Source: an uncultured Planctomycetota bacterium (GTDB lineage: Bacteria; Planctomycetota; Phycisphaerae; Sedimentisphaerales; UBA12454). Taken from it: a DNA stretch of 64,000 bases. Position numbers and translations under genes: made by a program. Where the stretch lies: positions 1 through 64,000 of the forward strand of contig CAINDG010000026.1 of NCBI GenBank assembly GCA_903847315.1, read 5' to 3'. The notes beneath the pieces are model-generated. The model did no database searches, was not told the origin of the DNA, and worked only from the letters and a program-made list of their open reading frames with translations. Positions 45,764 through 58,717 of the stretch are shown in pieces (within the stretch, counting starts at the first letter, position 1; each line of letters opens with the position of its first letter).

Positions 45764-46342
45764 TTATTCAAAGTTCAGCACAGCGAATTTACCCCGATAA
45801 AGTTTTGCCGCCGCATCGTATGCCTTCGCCGCTTCTATTTCGTTATCGAAATATCCCAGATGAATTTTACGTCCTTTATGCGGCAGTCTTGCGCAATATT
45901 TATTATTATGTATTGTAACGCCTTTATATTTACTCACGCCTTCGTCAAATCCCTGCCTGTTATTCCAGTTATTCTCCTGTACGGTAACGATTCTCAGGTT
46001 TGCCTTGCGGTTATCTAATCCGTCTCCATTTTCATGGTCAACGACAAAGCCTGTTGGCGGGGGCATTATTTGCCGGTGCAGGAACATAATCCTCTTCTTT
46101 CCGTTTTGATTTGAGGCTCGTCCCGCGTAGTATTTCTTTTTATTCTTGATAGCGTACCATGGATATTGGCTCAGTTTCTCGTAATCTTCAACGTCAACGA
46201 TTGCGTATTGGCCCTGCGTAAGTTTTATCTTGCGAAAGGCATATCCGTATTTCCATTTTCTGTAGCGCAGCAGAAAATATACGAAAATGATTTCGATAAA
46301 CGTTGGATAGTGAAAATTAAAATTGACATTGATTTTGGACAT
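45764..46342 (-). CDS. HNH endonuclease with AP2 DNA-binding domain
   Basis: A 192-residue protein. The N-terminal part (GQYAIVDVEDYEKLSQYPWY) is the NUMOD-like segment of HNH homing endonucleases; the HNH core lies in LHRQIMPPPTGFVVDHENGD and DNRKANLRIVT. The C-terminal AP2 domain reads KYKGVTIHNNKYCARLPHKG and YFDNEIEAAKAYDAAA. Such HNH-AP2 proteins are mobile DNA endonucleases. It sits next to, and points away from, the ubiquitin-like operon, so it may mark an island edge. Confidence 0.9.
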   Translation of the reverse strand: MSKINVNFNFHYPTFIEIIFVYFLLRYRKWKYGYAFRKIKLTQGQYAIVDVEDYEKLSQYPWYAIKNKKKYYAGRASNQNGKKRIMFLHRQIMPPPTGFVVDHENGDGLDNRKANLRIVTVQENNWNNRQGFDEGVSKYKGVTIHNNKYCARLPHKGRKIHLGYFDNEIEAAKAYDAAAKLYRGKFAVLNFE

Positions 46343-46745
46343 AGAATTTCCTCGTATAAAATTGCGGATTTAAAATTTGGGAATTGGATTAAAAACTCAA
46401 CAGAGCCCCGAATGTAAATGAGGGGTATTCTGTTTTATTTATTTATAATTTTTCCGGGTTTCCAGTTTATAGGTACTGATAACCGTTAACTCATATTGTT
46501 AATTTTTTACTTAACAATATGCGTATTTTACCATATTTTTAATAAAAGTCAAGGATTTTTTGCCTGTTTTTCAAAATGCGTCAGTTTCTACTTACGTTTT
46601 TGTCCATATACAGACATTTTATATCTGAAATTGTGAGGCAAAAAATTTTAAATTTAAAAATAATTTCGCTTGACTAAATAGAAAGAGTGTCATAAGCTGC
46701 ACAATTGTATTAATTGTATAATTAAAATGTTTAAGGAACTAATAT
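46343..46745. promoter_or_regulatory. AT-rich promoter region of the ubiquitin-like operon
   Basis: The 400 bases between the HNH gene and the operon are clearly AT-rich and carry no gene. An 11-bp inverted repeat, CATATTGTTAA (46492-46502) with TTAACAATATG (46511-46521), may be an operator or a terminator stem. A TATAAT box at 46717-46722 lies 24 bases ahead of the first ATG and is the likeliest -10; its -35 is weak. TTGACT at 46670-46675 has a poor -10 partner. Confidence 0.45.
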
Positions 46746-46928
46746 ATGGCACAAAAACCAACAATCGCAGAATTGGAAGCAATTTTGGATCGGGAAGAAG
46801 AAATCCCAATTGAAATACTTCCTAATGGTGAAATTCGGGCAAAAGGCCAAACGAGTACCGATGAGCTGGGTGGAAAGAAGCCGTTAACGATGCGTGAGAA
46901 TCTTGGCGGCGAATATTATAGGAGATAA
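46746..46928 (+). CDS. 60-residue acidic protein heading ubiquitin-like operon
   Basis: A short protein with AAGGA nine bases ahead of its ATG. The first half is acidic and helical (IAELEAILDREEE), the centre has a likely beta-hairpin (IPIEILPNGEIRAKG), and the end reads TMRENLGGEYYRR, with a Gly-Gly six residues from the C-terminus. The stop lies two bases before the first E2. It could be a modifier, a substrate peptide or an adaptor; at this size it is too short for a complete beta-grasp fold. No family is recognised. Confidence 0.7.
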   Translation: MAQKPTIAELEAILDREEEIPIEILPNGEIRAKGQTSTDELGGKKPLTMRENLGGEYYRR

Positions 46929-46930
46929 TC

Positions 46931-47308
46931 ATGGATATTTCTCGTATTAATTCTGAATTTTATCAAGCACGAGAGCATTTCTCCTACGTTGAGCTTCATC
47001 CGACAACAGAGGGAAAAGTTTATGTCAAGACGGTGTTACAACCTTCCTCTCAACAATATTATAGTGTTGAGATTCATTTTCCCGATAGCTACCCAAATGA
47101 AATGCCAAAAGTATATATTATTAAACCAGAGATTAATTCATCGCCTCATCGTTATGAGGCCGGTAACATTTGCTATTTACATCCAAGTATGTGGAACCCA
47201 GGAATTCATAACCTTCTATTTGTAATTCAGCGTGCAACTAAATGGCTTGCTAAATATGAAGTTTGGAAGCGGAATTATAATTGGCCAGGAGCACAAATAA
47301 AACACTAA
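46931..47308 (+). CDS. E2-like (UBC-fold) conjugating protein, first copy
   Basis: A 125-residue single-domain protein with the bacterial E2 pattern: a beta-sheet core, then FPDSYPNEMPKVYII, then SPHRYEAGNICYLHPSMWNPG with the candidate catalytic C81 and H73, and a closing helix QRATKWLAKYEVW. This is the UBC arrangement of a P-rich strand, His, active Cys and Trp. It shares the PHRxxxGxxC and WNPGxHN blocks with the second E2 in the operon. It should accept an activated modifier from the E1. No E3 is encoded nearby. Confidence 0.8.
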   Translation: MDISRINSEFYQAREHFSYVELHPTTEGKVYVKTVLQPSSQQYYSVEIHFPDSYPNEMPKVYIIKPEINSSPHRYEAGNICYLHPSMWNPGIHNLLFVIQRATKWLAKYEVWKRNYNWPGAQIKH

Positions 47309-47318
47309 AGGAAATCCT

Positions 47319-47861
47319 ATGGAGTTAGATTTTAAAACTTTGACAATGATGGAATTACGTAGTTCGCCCGGAGAAATTCTTGATAAGGTATACAAAAATG
47401 GCGAGTCATTTATTATTGAAAGAAATGGTTGCCAAAAAGCATGCTTAGTTCCGATATGGTTTTTTTTACCCGATATACCAAAGGATATAGTATATAAAGT
47501 TAATGAAGAGTTAGACCAATTACGTCAAATAGGAGAAAAACCATTATTGACATTTTCTAATAGAAACGAATTGGAGATACTGTTTAAAGAAGCTGTTGAT
47601 AAATATGAAATTACACTTAAAATAGTACTCCCCCATGGATATCCAAATAACGCTCCTAAAATCTACGCTTCGCCTATTATCGACGATGCGCCTCATCGAT
47701 GGCAAGATGGAGCACTTTGCATTTTTGGCGCCATGGCAAATTGGAATCCCGGTAAACATAATATTACTTCTGTGCTAGCGTTAGCCAGAAAGTGGCTTAC
47801 TGGCTATGGTGAATGGCGAGAAAAAGGAAGTTGGCCAAATAAAGTTGAAGGTAATAAATGA
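47319..47861 (+). CDS. Phd/YefM-like domain fused to E2-like domain
   Basis: A 180-residue two-domain protein. Residues 8-46 (MMELRSSPGEILDKVYKNGE, then SFIIERNGCQKACLVPI) match the DNA-binding antitoxin domain of Phd/YefM. Residues about 55-175 form an E2 like the preceding gene: LPHGYPNNAPKIYA, APHRWQDGALCIFG with C134 and H126, NWNPGKHN and a final WLTGYGEW. An antitoxin head on a UBC domain could let the E2 bind its own promoter, or couple conjugation to regulation. It overlaps the E1 gene by four bases. Confidence 0.8.
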   Translation: MELDFKTLTMMELRSSPGEILDKVYKNGESFIIERNGCQKACLVPIWFFLPDIPKDIVYKVNEELDQLRQIGEKPLLTFSNRNELEILFKEAVDKYEITLKIVLPHGYPNNAPKIYASPIIDDAPHRWQDGALCIFGAMANWNPGKHNITSVLALARKWLTGYGEWREKGSWPNKVEGNK

Positions 47862-48703
47862 GCGAAGAAAAAATATTTACACGAATAGAAAAATTATTTG
47901 ATGTCGGACTATTAAGCGATACTCGGGTTCTTATCGTTGGGTGTGGTTCAGGTGGTGGTAATCTTGCTCTGCAGTTGGCTATGTCAGGTATTCGTAATTT
48001 TACTCTTATAGATAAGGATGCTCTCGAGTTAGAAAATGTTATTAGGCATGTTTGTGGGCGTAAGTTTATAGGTAAGAAGAAAGTCGATGCCGTCGAGGAG
48101 GTATTGTTAGACAGAAACCCCGCGATTAATGTAAGAAAACTTGACGTAGATATAATGCACTATGATAATCTTGAATTCGAGATAAAAAATCATACAGTAA
48201 TCGCTTTAGCCACTGATAATGAACCTTCCCGTTATTTAGTTAATGAGATTTGTGTACGTAACAAGATTCCGTTTGTAGTAGCTCGTGTCTTTACTCGCGG
48301 TATTGGGGGAGAAGTTTTTAGCTATCGTCCAAGCTTAGGTGGCTGTTTGGCATGCCTAGAACGCATTCTTGAAAGAACTGAATATCGCCATGGGATAAGA
48401 GAAATAGATTTGGTTTCTGAAAAAGAGAGGGAATTAATGTATGGAATGGAAATATCTGAAATAAAGGATTCTCCTGGGCTCAACGTGGATATATCTTTTA
48501 TCACAGCTTTCCATGCTAGATTTCTCCTTGATGCAATTGCTGCGACATTACCAGAACGTCCGAAATATATGCAACCAATTCCTGATAATTATATTATTTG
48601 GGGAAATCGCCCCACTCATCCATTCACCAAACATTTTCAAATTCAGCGTATTACTCTGGATCCACAGGAAGGATGTCAAGTATGTTCAAAAGAAAAAAAA
48701 TAG
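47858..48703 (+). CDS. ThiF/E1-like adenylating enzyme
   Basis: A 281-residue enzyme that should adenylate the C-terminus of a ubiquitin-like protein. The nucleotide loop is GCGSGGG (28-34), followed by FTLIDKDALELENVIRH and GKKKVDAVEEVL, and ALATDNEPSRYLVNE, all typical of E1/ThiF/MoeB. Two CxxC pairs (CLAC 163-166, CQVC near the C-terminus) can form the structural zinc site. No separate catalytic-cysteine domain is seen. It overlaps the JAB gene by 22 bases. Confidence 0.9.
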   Translation: MSEEKIFTRIEKLFDVGLLSDTRVLIVGCGSGGGNLALQLAMSGIRNFTLIDKDALELENVIRHVCGRKFIGKKKVDAVEEVLLDRNPAINVRKLDVDIMHYDNLEFEIKNHTVIALATDNEPSRYLVNEICVRNKIPFVVARVFTRGIGGEVFSYRPSLGGCLACLERILERTEYRHGIREIDLVSEKERELMYGMEISEIKDSPGLNVDISFITAFHARFLLDAIAATLPERPKYMQPIPDNYIIWGNRPTHPFTKHFQIQRITLDPQEGCQVCSKEKK

Positions 48704-49620
48704 AAGGCTTCCAAGTCAAAATTTCTATTTGCAAAGATGTATTAGAAGCTATTTTTGATGAGTGCGATACAAATGACATAGATGAGACCGGCGGGCGCAT
48801 TGTTGGATATTATCATCAGAGCGGAAATAAATTAAATATAAAAGTCTGCGGTTTAATTGGTCCTGGGCACAATGCACGTAGATCGCCAACAAGTTTTTTT
48901 CAAGATGGTGCATATCAAGAAGCAGTTTTCCGTAAGATTGAAGCTGAACATCCAGAGATTGAACATCTCGGGAATTGGCATACCCACCATGTTAATGGTC
49001 TAGATACACTAAGTTCAGGAGACGTTGAGACGTATGAAAGGATTGTGAACCATGAGAAACATAATACCGATTTTTTCTATGCTCTTTTAGTTGTGGCTAA
49101 GGGCCGTACTTTTTACAATAGAGAAAGATATTTAGTGAAACATTTTTTGCTTAAAAGGGGAGAGTCTTTGGTCCATGAGATTCCAAGTGCACAGGTTAAG
49201 ATTATAAAAGAGGCTGCTGTATTTATAGATAAAGCAAAAGCTATTGAAGGAGTTTCTATAAAAGAAACTTTAACTGATTTAATCTCTAGTCAGCCAATGC
49301 TAGATCATATTCGTGCAAGAGATAAAGAATTTATTTCTGAAATGTATACAGAATTAAAACCTTTTCTTTCAAAACAAACAAAGAGTCTTTACTGGAGAGG
49401 CAACCTTAATCTTATCGATAATTCATCTGTTGAGGTTTTTGTATTGGAATCAATCAATAAAAGAAAGCCATCGTACTCCATAACCTTATCTGCTTCAAGC
49501 AGGCACCTCTTCCAATGCTCTCAGTTATATCTTAAACGAATTTTTGATTCAGCTTGGAAAGCAGTATATTTGTTTGAGCGCGATTTGAATAATGAGATAT
49601 TCGAAAAGATAAAAAAATGA
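48682..49620 (+). CDS. JAB/JAMM metalloprotease with C-terminal extension
   Basis: Start at ATG 48682, with GGAAGG just upstream; an earlier start would lie deep inside the E1. The protein has 312 residues. JAMM ligands are visible: E35 (ETGGRIVGYY), H100 and H102 (GNWHTHHVNG) and D114 (SSGDVETY), with spacing one residue longer than in the classic motif. JAB proteases remove or process ubiquitin-like modifiers. The last 160 residues are an unassigned domain with a coiled segment (FIDKAKAIEGVSI) and beta-rich end. It may process the small first protein at its Gly-Gly. Confidence 0.85.
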   Translation: MFKRKKIEGFQVKISICKDVLEAIFDECDTNDIDETGGRIVGYYHQSGNKLNIKVCGLIGPGHNARRSPTSFFQDGAYQEAVFRKIEAEHPEIEHLGNWHTHHVNGLDTLSSGDVETYERIVNHEKHNTDFFYALLVVAKGRTFYNRERYLVKHFLLKRGESLVHEIPSAQVKIIKEAAVFIDKAKAIEGVSIKETLTDLISSQPMLDHIRARDKEFISEMYTELKPFLSKQTKSLYWRGNLNLIDNSSVEVFVLESINKRKPSYSITLSASSRHLFQCSQLYLKRIFDSAWKAVYLFERDLNNEIFEKIKK

Positions 49621-49647
49621 TTACCTTTTAGTTTATTAAGGGGAAAA

Positions 49648-50481
49648 ATGGATATAATTACAGTTAATGTTGGTCAAGGGGCACTTGCTATTGTTCGCCA
49701 CGAGAATGATGCTATTATTGTGGACTCTTATATCCCACCATCCGGAGATGATACGGTTACTTATGTCAAAGGTATGTTAGCGTCCTTTTTGAAGAATTAT
49801 TTTGTCCGTGGCCTAATTTTAACAGGATTTGACGAAGATCACTCTGATGTTTCTGGGGTTGGGTTAGTTCTTAAAAAATATAGACCTGATTGGGTTATGT
49901 ATCCCAAATATTTTAAAGATACGGAGACAGCAAAAAAAGTTTTTCAGATCATAGATCAGCAAGAAAAAGAAAGAGAGAGCTCTGATCACCCTCTTAAAAG
50001 AATTTCTGTGCGACTTGACAAGGTGGGGTCTCGAATGCTCAAAGGTTTATCTCAATATTTCGACTTTGAATTATTTTCTCCGCATCCTGAAGATATGAAT
50101 AATTCGAATAATTCAGGTATTGTGCTTCGCTTGCAAGGTAAGGGTGAAGGTGGGTTTTCTTACCTGATTACTGGCGATACTGAAAGTGAGCGTTGGGATA
50201 CAATCAACCGATTATTTGGGAAAGCGTTGCGGTCAGATATAATGGCTGCCCCTCATCATGGATCAAAAACAGGAGCAAATGCCCAAACTTTTCTTCTTGT
50301 CGAGCCTAATACTATATTAATTAGTGCTGGCGTTGATAATCAATATGGGCATCCTGATTCCCAAGCAGTTGCTGTATATAGTAAGACTGCCAAACATGTT
50401 TTTTCTACAAATGTAAAAGGCGGTGTTTCGCTCTTTACTTCTCTTGGTACGAATGATTTCGAAACTAAGCTTATTAAATGA
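49648..50481 (+). CDS. Metallo-beta-lactamase-fold protein, ComEC/Rec2-like
   Basis: A 277-residue hydrolase-like protein with AAGGGGAAAA before the ATG. The first half starts DIITVNVGQGALAIVRHE, a ComEC-type opening. The metal motif normally HxHxDH reads GFDEDH (LTGFDEDHSDVSG), so the first His is Gly and the second Asp as in ComEC-type enzymes. The later LITGDTES and AAPHHGSKTGA are kept. It may therefore hold fewer metal ions, or none. MBL-fold proteins are known companions of E1/E2/JAB gene clusters. Substrate unknown. Confidence 0.82.
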   Translation: MDIITVNVGQGALAIVRHENDAIIVDSYIPPSGDDTVTYVKGMLASFLKNYFVRGLILTGFDEDHSDVSGVGLVLKKYRPDWVMYPKYFKDTETAKKVFQIIDQQEKERESSDHPLKRISVRLDKVGSRMLKGLSQYFDFELFSPHPEDMNNSNNSGIVLRLQGKGEGGFSYLITGDTESERWDTINRLFGKALRSDIMAAPHHGSKTGANAQTFLLVEPNTILISAGVDNQYGHPDSQAVAVYSKTAKHVFSTNVKGGVSLFTSLGTNDFETKLIK

Positions 50482-50574: not shown

Positions 50575-51267
50575 ATGACAAAGTTTAACACATATACAAT
50601 TTATGCTCGGTTCTTTCCTTGTATTATATCAGCTTTGCCGCTTTTTGTCCTTTGGTTCTTTCTATCAGATAATATACAGCTTAAAGAATTAGGAGCTTAT
50701 CTTTTAGGTTTGAAGTTCTATGGCGGCATAACATTATCCATTATATTTCTTTATTTTTATGCTCAGGTGTTACGTATAACTTCCAAAGTTATAGAAAAAA
50801 AACTTTTTCAAAACAAATCCGGATTTCCAACAACATATCTAATGACGTATGCTGATAATACAATTTCAAAAAGCTATAAAGATAAATTCAGGCAGCTTGT
50901 GAAAAAACAATTTGATATTGATTTATTGAATGAAAGCGAAGAAGCCGCTGATATTACAGAGGCAAGAAAACGTTTGAACGAAGCTACCCAATCAATTAGG
51001 CTCAAAATTAAAAAGGGCTATTTAGTTTTGGAGCAAAATATCTGGTACGGCTTCATGAGAAATGTAATTGGCGGAGCGGTATACTCTATAATTTTTTGTA
51101 TTATGAATATAATATTAGGCTCTATATGGTATAAAAATCCCATTCTTATTATTTCATCAATCATTTTACTTATTGTTTATGCAATTGTGTTATTACTTCA
51201 TAAGCAAATCCTCATACAAAACGCTGAAGCTTATGCGAAACAGTTAATCGCCGAATTTATGACCTAA
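50575..51267 (+). CDS. Membrane protein, possible island effector
   Basis: A 230-residue protein with membrane helices near residues 10-30, 42-65, 163-186 and 190-212 and a charged cytoplasmic stretch between (residues 75-155). The two-plus-two layout with a soluble middle recalls the small multi-helix effectors of nucleotide-signalling defence systems, but no motif proves it. It shares orientation and AT-rich composition with the ubiquitin-like operon and follows it after 93 bases. It may be the system's membrane effector or an unrelated neighbour. Confidence 0.6.
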   Translation: MTKFNTYTIYARFFPCIISALPLFVLWFFLSDNIQLKELGAYLLGLKFYGGITLSIIFLYFYAQVLRITSKVIEKKLFQNKSGFPTTYLMTYADNTISKSYKDKFRQLVKKQFDIDLLNESEEAADITEARKRLNEATQSIRLKIKKGYLVLEQNIWYGFMRNVIGGAVYSIIFCIMNIILGSIWYKNPILIISSIILLIVYAIVLLLHKQILIQNAEAYAKQLIAEFMT

Positions 51268-55461: not shown

Positions 55462-56221
55462 AGTTACCTCTGCTTAATATTGAGTATCTGGTATTCTATA
55501 TCAAATAGCGAAATTAACACTTAAAAACAGCAATCAAATTTCTTTTATCTATTCTTATATGCTTTTGGCGGAAAAATGTTCAATTCCGCCTTCGGCGAGA
55601 CTGAAGTTATCGGGCGTAAACCTTCTCCGCAGAAGGTTTACCTTGTTTTATCGACAAAAAGGGGGAGTAACTTTTGAGACAAAAAGAGAAAAAAACGCTT
55701 TTTTTAAGCATCAGAGAACATTTTTTTAGACACGGATTAACACGGTTTTTCACCACCGAGCCACCCCGATGAGATAGCCGAAGCGTCATCTCACGGGGCA
55801 GGCGCCGAACACAGAGCAACACAGAGGCGATATTGCTTTAAGACGTCCCTTGGGGACTGTAAAATTCAAAGCTGAACCCTTGCTTGAAGTAAACTTCAGC
55901 CGGGTTTGCACTTTAAATTTTTGCCGGCTGCGCCAACGGCCTTAAAGCAAACGAACGTTGTCGTACCGACAACGGCTAAACGCAGGGTTTCAAAATCTGA
56001 ATTTTTGCCGATTATATCAGCAAAGTTGAAGCAATAAATCTACTGCGCAGTTTTGCCTTAAAGATTAGAAACATCGCCCTAATCCGCCTTCGCTAAGGCT
56101 TCGGACGGACAAGATGGCGACGGCTAAATGTTTTTTTTCGTTGAGTTTAAAAAGAAGTCATGATATAATCTTAAAAAATATTGAGGAATTGCAACGGCAG
56201 AATATTAAAAATAGACTTTGG
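55462..56221. other. Gene-free region upstream of clpC
   Basis: About 760 bases with no credible gene. It carries a perfect 9-bp hairpin AAACCTTCT/AGAAGGTTT (55618-55639), an inverted partial copy of the structured repeat at 55764-55798 with related flanks to 55846, and scattered GC-rich fragments resembling other repeats in this window. The clpC promoter should lie in its first 100 bases, but I cannot pick a clear pair of boxes. Confidence 0.5.
55764..55798 (-). repeat. Inverted partial copy C of the structured repeat
   Basis: Read on the minus strand it gives CCCCGTGAGATG, a CGCTTCGG tip and ATCTCATCGGGG, that is, the inner hairpin of copy B. The outer stem is missing. Flanking text to 55846 (TTAAAGCAATAT and neighbours) also matches the left flank of copy A near 51617. 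Confidence 0.6.
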
Positions 56222-58717
56222 TTAAAAATTTAGTTTTAACTGAGGGTCAACTTTTCTTTTCTTGTTAAATCCTAAATTTGTGATTTCCTCTATTAACGTT
56301 TCATTGTTCTTTTTGCTCCATGCTTGATATAATTGTTCAAACAATATAAATTTCCAATTATCACTTTTAAATCTTTCATGAAACATAGGCGTCTTCATCT
56401 TTCGTTCATACTGTCGATATCTGTCCGATGGGAAAAGCATGACTTTTGATACTGAACTTTCAATGTTTGATCCTCTTAATAAAGCACTCGTCATAGAGGT
56501 TGTTGCTTCAATCTCAAATACATATTCAATGTTATGGTTTTTTATCCATAACAAATCAATATCTTCAACAATATCAATGTTTTCGATATTTTTTATTCGG
56601 CTTAAGTCAGGGTAATCAAGGTAATCCTTAAGAAATTTTTTATGTATCATGAAGGAATCAATTTTGTGGGATTGCTCCACCTTGCCTATATATATTTTAT
56701 AACCATGCTTTCTGCCTATCTCTGCCAATAATGCGATAATTGTTGAGTGCTCTTTTTCTATAACATTTGGCTGAAAATTTTGTTTAATCATCCAATTCCC
56801 ACCGGCTACAGGTCTAGCATAGTCTTCTAATGCGCTTTTTATGCTTGTTTGGTCGGAAGTCAATGAGTTAGGGAAGGCAATACTCACCGCCTCCCAAATA
56901 TCTGTAAAAGTAACACTTCCTTTTGATTGCAATTGCCGCAAGACAGTTTGCTCAACTCTTTCCGATAAGGGTATTTTTTCCAGATGTGGAACAATATTAG
57001 GATCAGTAAACCACCATAATTTTCCAGTAGTTGCGGCTATTTTGCCTTCAATAAGAGAAAACTCCCTATCTAAATGCTTCTTTAGAACATCTTCAGAATC
57101 TAGTCCTGTTTCAAGTTCTGAGAAATATCCTTGCTTAGCAAGCTCTGGGTCAATAGCATTTATGATAATAGTATATGGCGTTGGTTCTCCTCTTTCAGCT
57201 AATACCTTAGTAGTAGTATCTACTACAATTTTCTCAAATCGCTTTTCATCGATTAATTCTGGCTTATAACCCCCTTTACATAAATCAGGCTTATAAAACC
57301 TTAGATAGAAATCACCTTGTGCTGAACCAAAAGGTTGCAATAATGATTTTGGTGAAGAATGGGCTAGCTCTTGATGATGAATTTTTTGAAGTTCAAATCC
57401 TGCTAAAACCCCTATCCGCATAGTTGCGTTTCTGACCTTAAAAGTGGGATTATGGAATGTAAGAGTTAAATACTTATCTGCTTTTAAAACATTGAACATG
57501 CCTTGGAAGCTATTTCTTAAAAGCGATGTATATACAGTAAAATCTTTGTTTTGCTTTTCATTATGAATAATTTCTTTACTATCAATCGTCTCGAGATAAT
57601 TCTTATCTTTCTTAATCCATGTAACCCAAATGTAGGATAATTCCCCATATTGAATTGATGAATCATAAGGGGGGTCAGTAAAAATATAATCAACACAACC
57701 ATTATCACCAAACTTTTTATTCATCCTATCCATTAATTCGATACAATCTCCATTATATATAAATACATTAGCATCGCCTTCAATTACATCCTCTATCTTT
57801 CTTGCAAATTTGATTTTTCCATAATACCTGTTCGATTCTTCTTTGGCTTTTATTAATCCCTGTTTGCCTATAATTGCGCTTTCAAATTTTTCCCATACAT
57901 TTTGTTCCATGAATTCATTTGCGCTCCAATAACTATGTTGGGTCCAGGCTGAACTCATAGGACGTGTTGGTCGAACAGGTGTCATTTTGCTACAAAGGTG
58001 TAGCATTGAAGTAAACCCAATAATTAAAAAGTCTTTTATATCTCTGTTTTCCTCCTTTTCAATTGCATCCATTAAGATAGCAAGCGCATAGAGATTTCGC
58101 TTTGTGAATAAATCATTAATTTGCTCATAATGTTGCTTTTCTTTAAATGGATTTCCGTTAATATGGTAGAGTTTGTTTGTTGGATACCACTCCTTAATTT
58201 TATGCTTATCAATCTCATTAATTTTTCTTAAATCGTAATCGATCACAGGATTATTTGATATTTTTTGTTCCCCACAAGATGAACAATTATAATATCTTAT
58301 TTCAACACATTTGTTTTTCTTCCATATCGCACAATTAAATGAGAATTCATTTCCACACTTGCGACATTTAGTTTTATATAAATCTAAGATTTTATTTTTT
58401 ACCAATTTTTCTATTGCCACAAAAGCTTCGTGAAGCTTATTTAAATCTATAGGCTTTAAAGTTAAACGAGTAATTTCAGTTGCGATTGGGTTCAAATCAG
58501 AGACAATAGCTTTTCTGCCTCTTTTAAGTGCTTCCATCGCAACAATACCACTACCCACAAAAGGATCGAAAACAATACCACCTTTAGGACAATATGTTTC
58601 AATGAATTGACCAACGACATTCCATGTTTTACGAGCCCAATATTTATGAAAGTTATACATCGGTGTATGGGCTTCGGGTGCCAATTGTCGATTTAGGTGA
58701 TTTAAATCATGTTTCAT
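56222..58717 (-). CDS. Large DNA methyltransferase with zinc finger and nuclease-like tail
   Basis: An 831-residue protein. N-terminal AdoMet motif FDPFVGSGIVAMEALKRG (50-67), with SDLNPIATEI; a four-cysteine zinc site (C118, C121, C145, C148); catalytic motif TDPPYDSSIQYGELSY starting at 347. This order (FGxG before DPPY, with large insert) fits N6-adenine or N4-cytosine methylases of the beta-like or DUF1156-type. The last 110 residues include LLWIKNHNIEYVFEIEATTS (735-738 core EIEA), like a degenerate PD-(D/E)xK nuclease. A single-protein restriction-modification or an orphan methylase are both possible. It is AT-rich. Confidence 0.85.
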   Translation of the reverse strand: MKHDLNHLNRQLAPEAHTPMYNFHKYWARKTWNVVGQFIETYCPKGGIVFDPFVGSGIVAMEALKRGRKAIVSDLNPIATEITRLTLKPIDLNKLHEAFVAIEKLVKNKILDLYKTKCRKCGNEFSFNCAIWKKNKCVEIRYYNCSSCGEQKISNNPVIDYDLRKINEIDKHKIKEWYPTNKLYHINGNPFKEKQHYEQINDLFTKRNLYALAILMDAIEKEENRDIKDFLIIGFTSMLHLCSKMTPVRPTRPMSSAWTQHSYWSANEFMEQNVWEKFESAIIGKQGLIKAKEESNRYYGKIKFARKIEDVIEGDANVFIYNGDCIELMDRMNKKFGDNGCVDYIFTDPPYDSSIQYGELSYIWVTWIKKDKNYLETIDSKEIIHNEKQNKDFTVYTSLLRNSFQGMFNVLKADKYLTLTFHNPTFKVRNATMRIGVLAGFELQKIHHQELAHSSPKSLLQPFGSAQGDFYLRFYKPDLCKGGYKPELIDEKRFEKIVVDTTTKVLAERGEPTPYTIIINAIDPELAKQGYFSELETGLDSEDVLKKHLDREFSLIEGKIAATTGKLWWFTDPNIVPHLEKIPLSERVEQTVLRQLQSKGSVTFTDIWEAVSIAFPNSLTSDQTSIKSALEDYARPVAGGNWMIKQNFQPNVIEKEHSTIIALLAEIGRKHGYKIYIGKVEQSHKIDSFMIHKKFLKDYLDYPDLSRIKNIENIDIVEDIDLLWIKNHNIEYVFEIEATTSMTSALLRGSNIESSVSKVMLFPSDRYRQYERKMKTPMFHERFKSDNWKFILFEQLYQAWSKKNNETLIEEITNLGFNKKRKVDPQLKLNF

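Follow-up and report, generated by a model that had tools for sequence, protein, structure and literature searches.

The window, that is, the whole stretch of 64,000 nucleotides (nt) from an uncultured Planctomycetota bacterium, with coordinates counted from its first letter, contains at 46746-50481 six open reading frames (ORFs), all on the plus strand, that code for a 60-residue protein, two proteins related to E2 conjugating enzymes (E2a and the Phd-domain protein E2b), an E1/ThiF-like enzyme, a JAB protease and an MBL-fold protein (Table 1). The distances between consecutive ORFs are +2, +10, -4, -22 and +27 nt; positions and gaps agree with an earlier sequence-only reading of this DNA, which had described six genes on one strand forming a single transcription unit. 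The domains that it had assigned (E2, Phd-E2, E1/ThiF, JAB and MBL) are matched in Pfam, NCBIfam and PADLOC, family searches likewise support a cluster of E1, E2, JAB and MBL proteins, and no beta-grasp family match was obtained among the operon genes. A seventh ORF, coding for a multi-transmembrane (multi-TM) protein, begins 93 nt after the MBL gene, and the unit probably extends to it.

Table 1. Genes and regulatory-type features of the operon in the window.
Feature	Position	Strand	Remarks
Small protein, 60 residues, candidate modifier	46746..46928	+	tail KPLTMRENLGGEY (Gly54-Gly55-Glu56-Tyr57), then YRR
E2a, UBC-fold conjugating enzyme	46931..47308	+	C81 in GNICYLHPSMWNPG; Pfam and PADLOC E2 matches
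Phd-E2b, UEV-like	47319..47861	+	Phd residues ~1-50; C134 present in the window copy
E1/ThiF-like adenylating enzyme	47858..48703	+	ThiF 6e-35; CxxC pairs C163/C166 and C273/C276
JAB/JAMM isopeptidase	48682..49620	+	PADLOC JAB 1.6e-16; ~160-residue C-terminal extension
ComEC-type MBL-fold hydrolase	49648..50481	+	ComEC_Rec2 5e-24
Multi-TM protein, probable effector	50575..51267	+	homologue ends L073 operon; TM-like segments
Promoter/operator-like element	46670..46717	+	TTGAC (-35) at 46670; palindrome 46701-46717

We were able to identify the order small protein-E2a-Phd-E2b-E1-JAB in seven operons, the window and six others, every one of which keeps E1 and JAB; the MBL gene is also present in six of the seven, being absent from G158. 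The relatives are L005, on an Alphaproteobacterial plasmid of Mesorhizobium sp. AR10 (plasmid search; same order plus a patatin gene), G158, in another genome of the window's phylum (phylum search with E2a), three metagenome-assembled genomes (MAGs) found by scanning a genome collection with E2a (L041, an unplaced bacterium; L042, Alphaproteobacteria; L043, Omnitrophota), and L073 (genome G1416), a second Omnitrophota copy found with the small protein. Identity to the window proteins is 66-82% for E1 and 43-62% for JAB, and 43-82% for E1, JAB and MBL together across the six relatives. By these sequence comparisons, the recurrence of the gene order in six other places exceeds chance and the operon is a conserved, mobile module; since the copies are spread over distant phyla at 60-70% E1/MBL identity, lateral transfer is indicated. 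The Mesorhizobium E1 is frameshifted just past the nucleotide-binding loop (L005:9998-10200), either a true lesion or a sequencing error. With E1 as query, the viral contig scan and the genome contig scan both gave no match, and a scan with the E1 alignment retrieved distant ThiF proteins only; a match in Candidatus Fermentimicrarchaeum (E 2) was not counted.

The sequence-only reading had found no obvious modifier, a statement that we do not uphold: because all seven operons begin with the small gene and its product carries an invariant LGGEY near the C-terminus, the small protein is the obvious candidate. In an alignment of the seven operon copies and 17 phage-type copies, P26, G28, T48 and L53-G54-G55-E56-Y57 are invariant (24/24). 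GGEY is the exact C-terminus in four operon copies (L005, L042, L043 and L073), and in the phage copies it is always followed by A, G, S or T. The L042 gene (8850-8995), at first thought to be missing, is present with a broken 5' end and an intact tail (...KPLTMRENLGGEY-stop). Synonymous change is saturated in the small gene while non-synonymous change (pN) is 0.06-0.31, which shows it to encode a protein under selection. Among ~1,400 genomes from four groups the gene occurs in seven, in six of them directly upstream of E2a and in the seventh (G1399/L074) among phage packaging genes. The protein has no family in Pfam, NCBIfam, PADLOC or PHROGs and no match in INPHARED; a lone Multi_ubiq match (E 0.16) was judged to be due to chance. 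In an AlphaFold2 (AF2) model, of low confidence (pLDDT 67), a helix is followed by a short hairpin and by a tail that is open and extended, so that the protein appears, at that low confidence, not to be of beta-grasp fold; in sequence, too, it is not ubiquitin-like. The modifier of the operon is most likely the product of its own first gene, a non-beta-grasp protein of 60 residues.

E2a matches UQ_con (4e-5) and PADLOC E2 (1e-13), and its C81 and H73 are invariant (7/7). E2b matches PhdYeFM (6e-5) and RWD (8e-4) in Pfam and PADLOC E2 (3e-8), and is 39% identical to E2a over 77 residues. Its AF2 model (pLDDT 85) has UBC/UEV proteins, including UBE2N and UBE2V1, as best Foldseek matches, with TM-scores of only about 0.4-0.56 for a model that included the Phd domain. 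Both short proteins are therefore of UBC fold, and to that extent the earlier description of two E2s stands; as regards catalysis it calls for a qualification, since the cysteine of E2b is present in three of the seven operons (window C134, G158 and L041) and replaced by serine in three and by alanine in one, which gives E2b the look of a UEV-type pseudo-E2. E1 (PF00899; nearest solved structures MccB and MoeB) retains its nucleotide site together with two CxxC pairs, besides which only C29, C66 and C132 are invariant cysteines. One may speculate that C66, an odd invariant cysteine beside the conserved arginine of the nucleotide site, has a functional role. JAB matches Prok-JAB (1e-4) and PADLOC JAB (2e-16), and its JAMM residues E35, H100 and H102 (HTH 100-102), S111 and D114 are invariant in the seven copies. 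In the MBL protein (ComEC/Rec2, 5e-24), the ligand motifs DEDH 62-65, TGD 175-177 and HHGS 203-206, as well as H235, are invariant in the six copies.

In six of the seven operons the last gene is a variable one with a membrane-acting product, a patatin phospholipase in three (after the MBL gene in L005, L041 and L043; PF01734, 6e-15 to 1e-21) and a multi-TM protein in three (window, L073 and L042), with a second MBL gene preceding it in L073. The multi-TM proteins of the window and L073 are homologous (28% identity, E 6e-17), and that of L042 has no detectable homology to them. Abortive-infection systems are commonly built in this way, from a constant core and a last gene that can be exchanged and acts on the membrane, and by analogy we read the variable last gene as a putative effector of that type.

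Upstream of six operons, TTGAC is followed, 30-36 nt on, by CAATTRT inside the element GTGCAATTRTA; L042, whose 5' end is broken, has no such element. The shared 11-mer scores 61/66, whereas the best of 60 first-order Markov resamples reaches 54. In the window the element takes the form of the palindrome ACAATT-GTATT-AATTGT, and the L005 element is perfectly palindromic, GTGCAATT-N5-AATTGCAC. Even with up to 3 mismatches allowed, the full 21-base-pair operator pattern is not found in the window, the half-site core alone being shared. Since proteins with Phd/YefM domains bind palindromic sites in their own promoters, E2b is a likely repressor; its Phd domain, together with the conserved upstream element, suggests autorepression of the operon.

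The surroundings fit the earlier description of an AT-rich, laterally acquired, defence-island-like locus. The region at 46-52 kb has 36-38% GC against about 45%, and E2a is absent from six genomes of the same genus. In one genome of the genus (G003), the flanking 85-residue gene and ClpC lie 274 base pairs apart with no operon between them; we do not regard this as a clean empty site, since ClpC has the opposite relative orientation and the locus has been rearranged as well. Among the copies L041 alone has a CD-NTase (SMODS) gene close by, ~1.2 kb upstream of its operon; beside this operon lie also a type I methyltransferase gene and an adjoining bona fide 6A-MBL system (L041:12473-15761; NF058524, 403.7 bits; NF058523, 592.7 bits); the neighbours are a type IIG restriction-modification gene in L073 and a gene for an HNH-effector-like protein in G158. 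Island neighbours, effectors and mobility point, indirectly, to a putative anti-phage defence role.

A homing-endonuclease-like gene with HNH_3 and AP2 domains (45764-46342), for which no homologue was seen among the genes of the other operons and which we do not count as part of the operon, marks the left edge of the AT-rich stretch. A second AT-rich stretch (34% GC) is found beyond ClpC, at 56000-58000. We also observed two clusters in the same phylum (L064:2115-4643 and L065:3804-6350) in which a Cas2-like gene accompanies an E2 extended at its N-terminus and a JAB-E1 fusion devoid of the canonical E1 cysteine, possibly a CRISPR-adjacent conjugation system; the N-terminus of their E2 proteins (VITPNGELKVKG), considered as a fused small domain, was not significant (E 1.1). 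A cluster on a Bradyrhizobium plasmid (L087:2981-9351), coding for JAB, a 155-residue protein, an E1 without the cysteine, a protein with a dsDNA nuclease domain and a TIR protein, is another dispersed E1/JAB operon, defence-like in content.

A beta-grasp modifier is not universal in E1-E2-JAB systems, cGAS in CBASS being an exception. The known systems compared with the operon were 6A-MBL, type II CBASS, Bil, row 6e of Iyer 2006 and the Phd/YefM antitoxins, Bub (Gong 2025; Ye 2026) lying outside the comparison. Iyer 2006 (PMC1779556) describes E2-E1-JAB fusions accompanied by an MBL protein (row 6a) as well as operons in which polyUbl occurs together with inactive E2s (row 6e), and the window operon belongs to neither kind. 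The first of these, 6A-MBL, shares with the window E2, E1 and JAB activities and an MBL protein in the absence of a beta-grasp gene, and we found no described modifier for it. However, 6A-MBL has one fused E2-E1-JAB protein where the window has separate ORFs, and the window operon differs further in its second E2-type protein (the Phd-bearing E2b), its phage-like small protein, its ComEC-like MBL and its membrane effector. Because the window fails all the curated cut-offs (48.7 and 42.6 bits against 320, and 37.8 bits against 220; NF058523/NF058524), and a true 6A-MBL adjoins the L041 copy, the window operon and 6A-MBL are separate systems. Type II CBASS (Cap2/Cap3) is similar in that the partner on which E1-E2 and JAB act is not a beta-grasp protein, the conjugated protein being cGAS (PMC10097602), and in that patatin-type effectors are known there; in contrast, the window operon has no CD-NTase, its E1 and E2 are separate and its E1 lacks the cysteine. 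In Bil (BilABCD), modifier, E2, JAB and E1 are also on separate genes, and, as reported in PMC11364771, the Ubl is attached to a phage tail fibre; but BilA has two beta-grasp domains and the BilD E1 a Cys domain (PMC11354881), and neither a tandem beta-grasp BilA nor an E1 Cys domain was found in the window. The row 6e operons share an inactive RWD/E2-like protein, but contain polyUbl and a JAB-E1 fusion, whereas in the window beta-grasp proteins and fusions are both absent. Phd/YefM antitoxins resemble E2b in the N-terminal Phd domain and the palindromic element at the promoter; E2b differs in having no toxin partner and a C-terminal part of UBC fold. Judged by gene content against these systems, the operon is a new variant of bacterial E1-E2-JAB (ubiquitin-like conjugation), defence-type systems, with conjugation and defence as presumed activities.

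We hypothesized, with a probability of roughly 0.55, that the operon was acquired laterally and encodes a ubiquitin-like conjugation system of defence type, its modifier being, most likely, the product of gene 1. Several observations weigh against this reading. At the segment of ThiF C184/MoeB C187 (the catalytic position in E. coli ThiF), where the fused 6A-like E1 of Paenibacillus (L088) carries a cysteine, the E1 of the operon has none, so that an E1 thioester route stays a proposal; many, though not all, members of E1-E2-JAB systems have a catalytic E1 cysteine. The di-glycine of the small protein is followed by 2-7 more residues, which means that JAB must be presumed to process the tail, unless it is the tyrosine that forms the real reactive C-terminus. 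The effectors vary, and G158 has neither MBL nor an adjoining effector. Finally, in viral loci with the small protein no close homologue of window-type E1, E2 or JAB was detected, so that the protein has a function of its own there.

Scans of viral contigs gave many relatives of the small protein, with the same LGGEY tail in the 17 aligned, and an unlikely alternative is that the operon protein is a captured phage head/packaging-cluster protein serving as a bait or sensor, a mimic and not a modifier, E1, E2a and JAB acting on the LGGEY tail of the phage protein or of its host mimic and so releasing the effector. The phage copies, up to 66% identical and with the invariant tail, agree with this, as does their placement: by PHROGs assignments, the small gene overlaps the 3' end of the portal gene in L024 and L032 and the terminase gene in L033, and portal and terminase are sensed by other defence systems (PMC11364771). 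In further phage-type copies the portal gene is one gene upstream (L034), the major head protein gene two genes upstream (L029), a terminase gene no more than a few kb away (L031, L035 and L044), or terminase and portal are both nearby (L074). However, only about six phage copies have a virion gene no farther than one or two genes away, the remainder being farther off or in replication/lysogeny regions (near helicase or integrase genes in L049, L051 and L055). In the small-protein tree the operon copies cluster (2 changes against 6.1 when shuffled), but with p-AU 0.25 for one operon clade the tree favours no particular origin or direction of transfer. The converse, that phages copied a host modifier as a counter-defence sponge occupying E1, E2a or JAB, seems to us improbable: the same tail in diverse phages and at differing genome positions, partly in early regions, would suit it, but diversity is greater among the phage copies than among the few copies in operons, and several of the phage genes belong to late morphogenesis clusters. 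Very improbable is peptide modification, with E1 acting MccB-like on the small protein as precursor and JAB and MBL as maturation hydrolases, since, although the best solved relative of E1 is MccB, which adenylates a peptide, and E1 lacks the canonical cysteine, such pathways do not use the catalytic cysteine that E2a keeps in 7/7 copies, the copies adjoin defence genes and end in patatin/TM genes, and the unit has no transporter gene. We also observed phage proteins (L036, L037, L038, L040, L059 and L061) that have mainly the N-terminal module KPTIAELEAIL...ILPNGEI in common with the small protein, the C-terminal parts attached to it being different.

If the operon is indeed a conjugation system, JAB would trim or recycle the small protein at its tail (LGG|EY), the ThiF-like E1 would adenylate the exposed C-terminus, and E2a would take the small protein on Cys81 and hand it to a target, assisted by E2b as a pseudo-E2 in the manner of Mms2-Ubc13. 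The Phd domain of E2b would bind the GTGCAATTRTA operator and hold the operon low, so that de-repression may serve as a read-out of the conjugation state. Upon phage infection the system would fire the variable membrane effector (patatin phospholipase, or the multi-TM protein in the window), the ComEC-type MBL being a second hydrolytic arm. The sequences themselves show the conserved gene order, the domains and active-site residues, the invariant tail, the operator-like element, the variable last gene and the phage homology of the small protein; that conjugation and defence take place, where the tail is cut, that E2b helps and represses, and what the trigger and target are, we infer. The complete scheme, an E1-E2-JAB cascade with a short, non-beta-grasp, phage-shared modifier, a Cys-less E1 and a Phd-pseudo-E2 that reads the conjugation state as a transcriptional gate, the phage homologue being trigger, target or decoy, is put forward tentatively, as we consider it somewhat doubtful in its entirety.

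Operons with E1, E2 and JAB and without beta-grasp proteins have been known since Iyer 2006, and the window operon adds a concrete, compact candidate for the modifier. If true, this candidate would extend the precedent of cGAS, in that the conjugated protein need not be beta-grasp. The fusion of Phd and UEV domains, together with the operator-like element, suggests a way of coupling conjugation to transcription, and the homology of the small protein to phage proteins, the surprising part, would provide a direct handle on the trigger.

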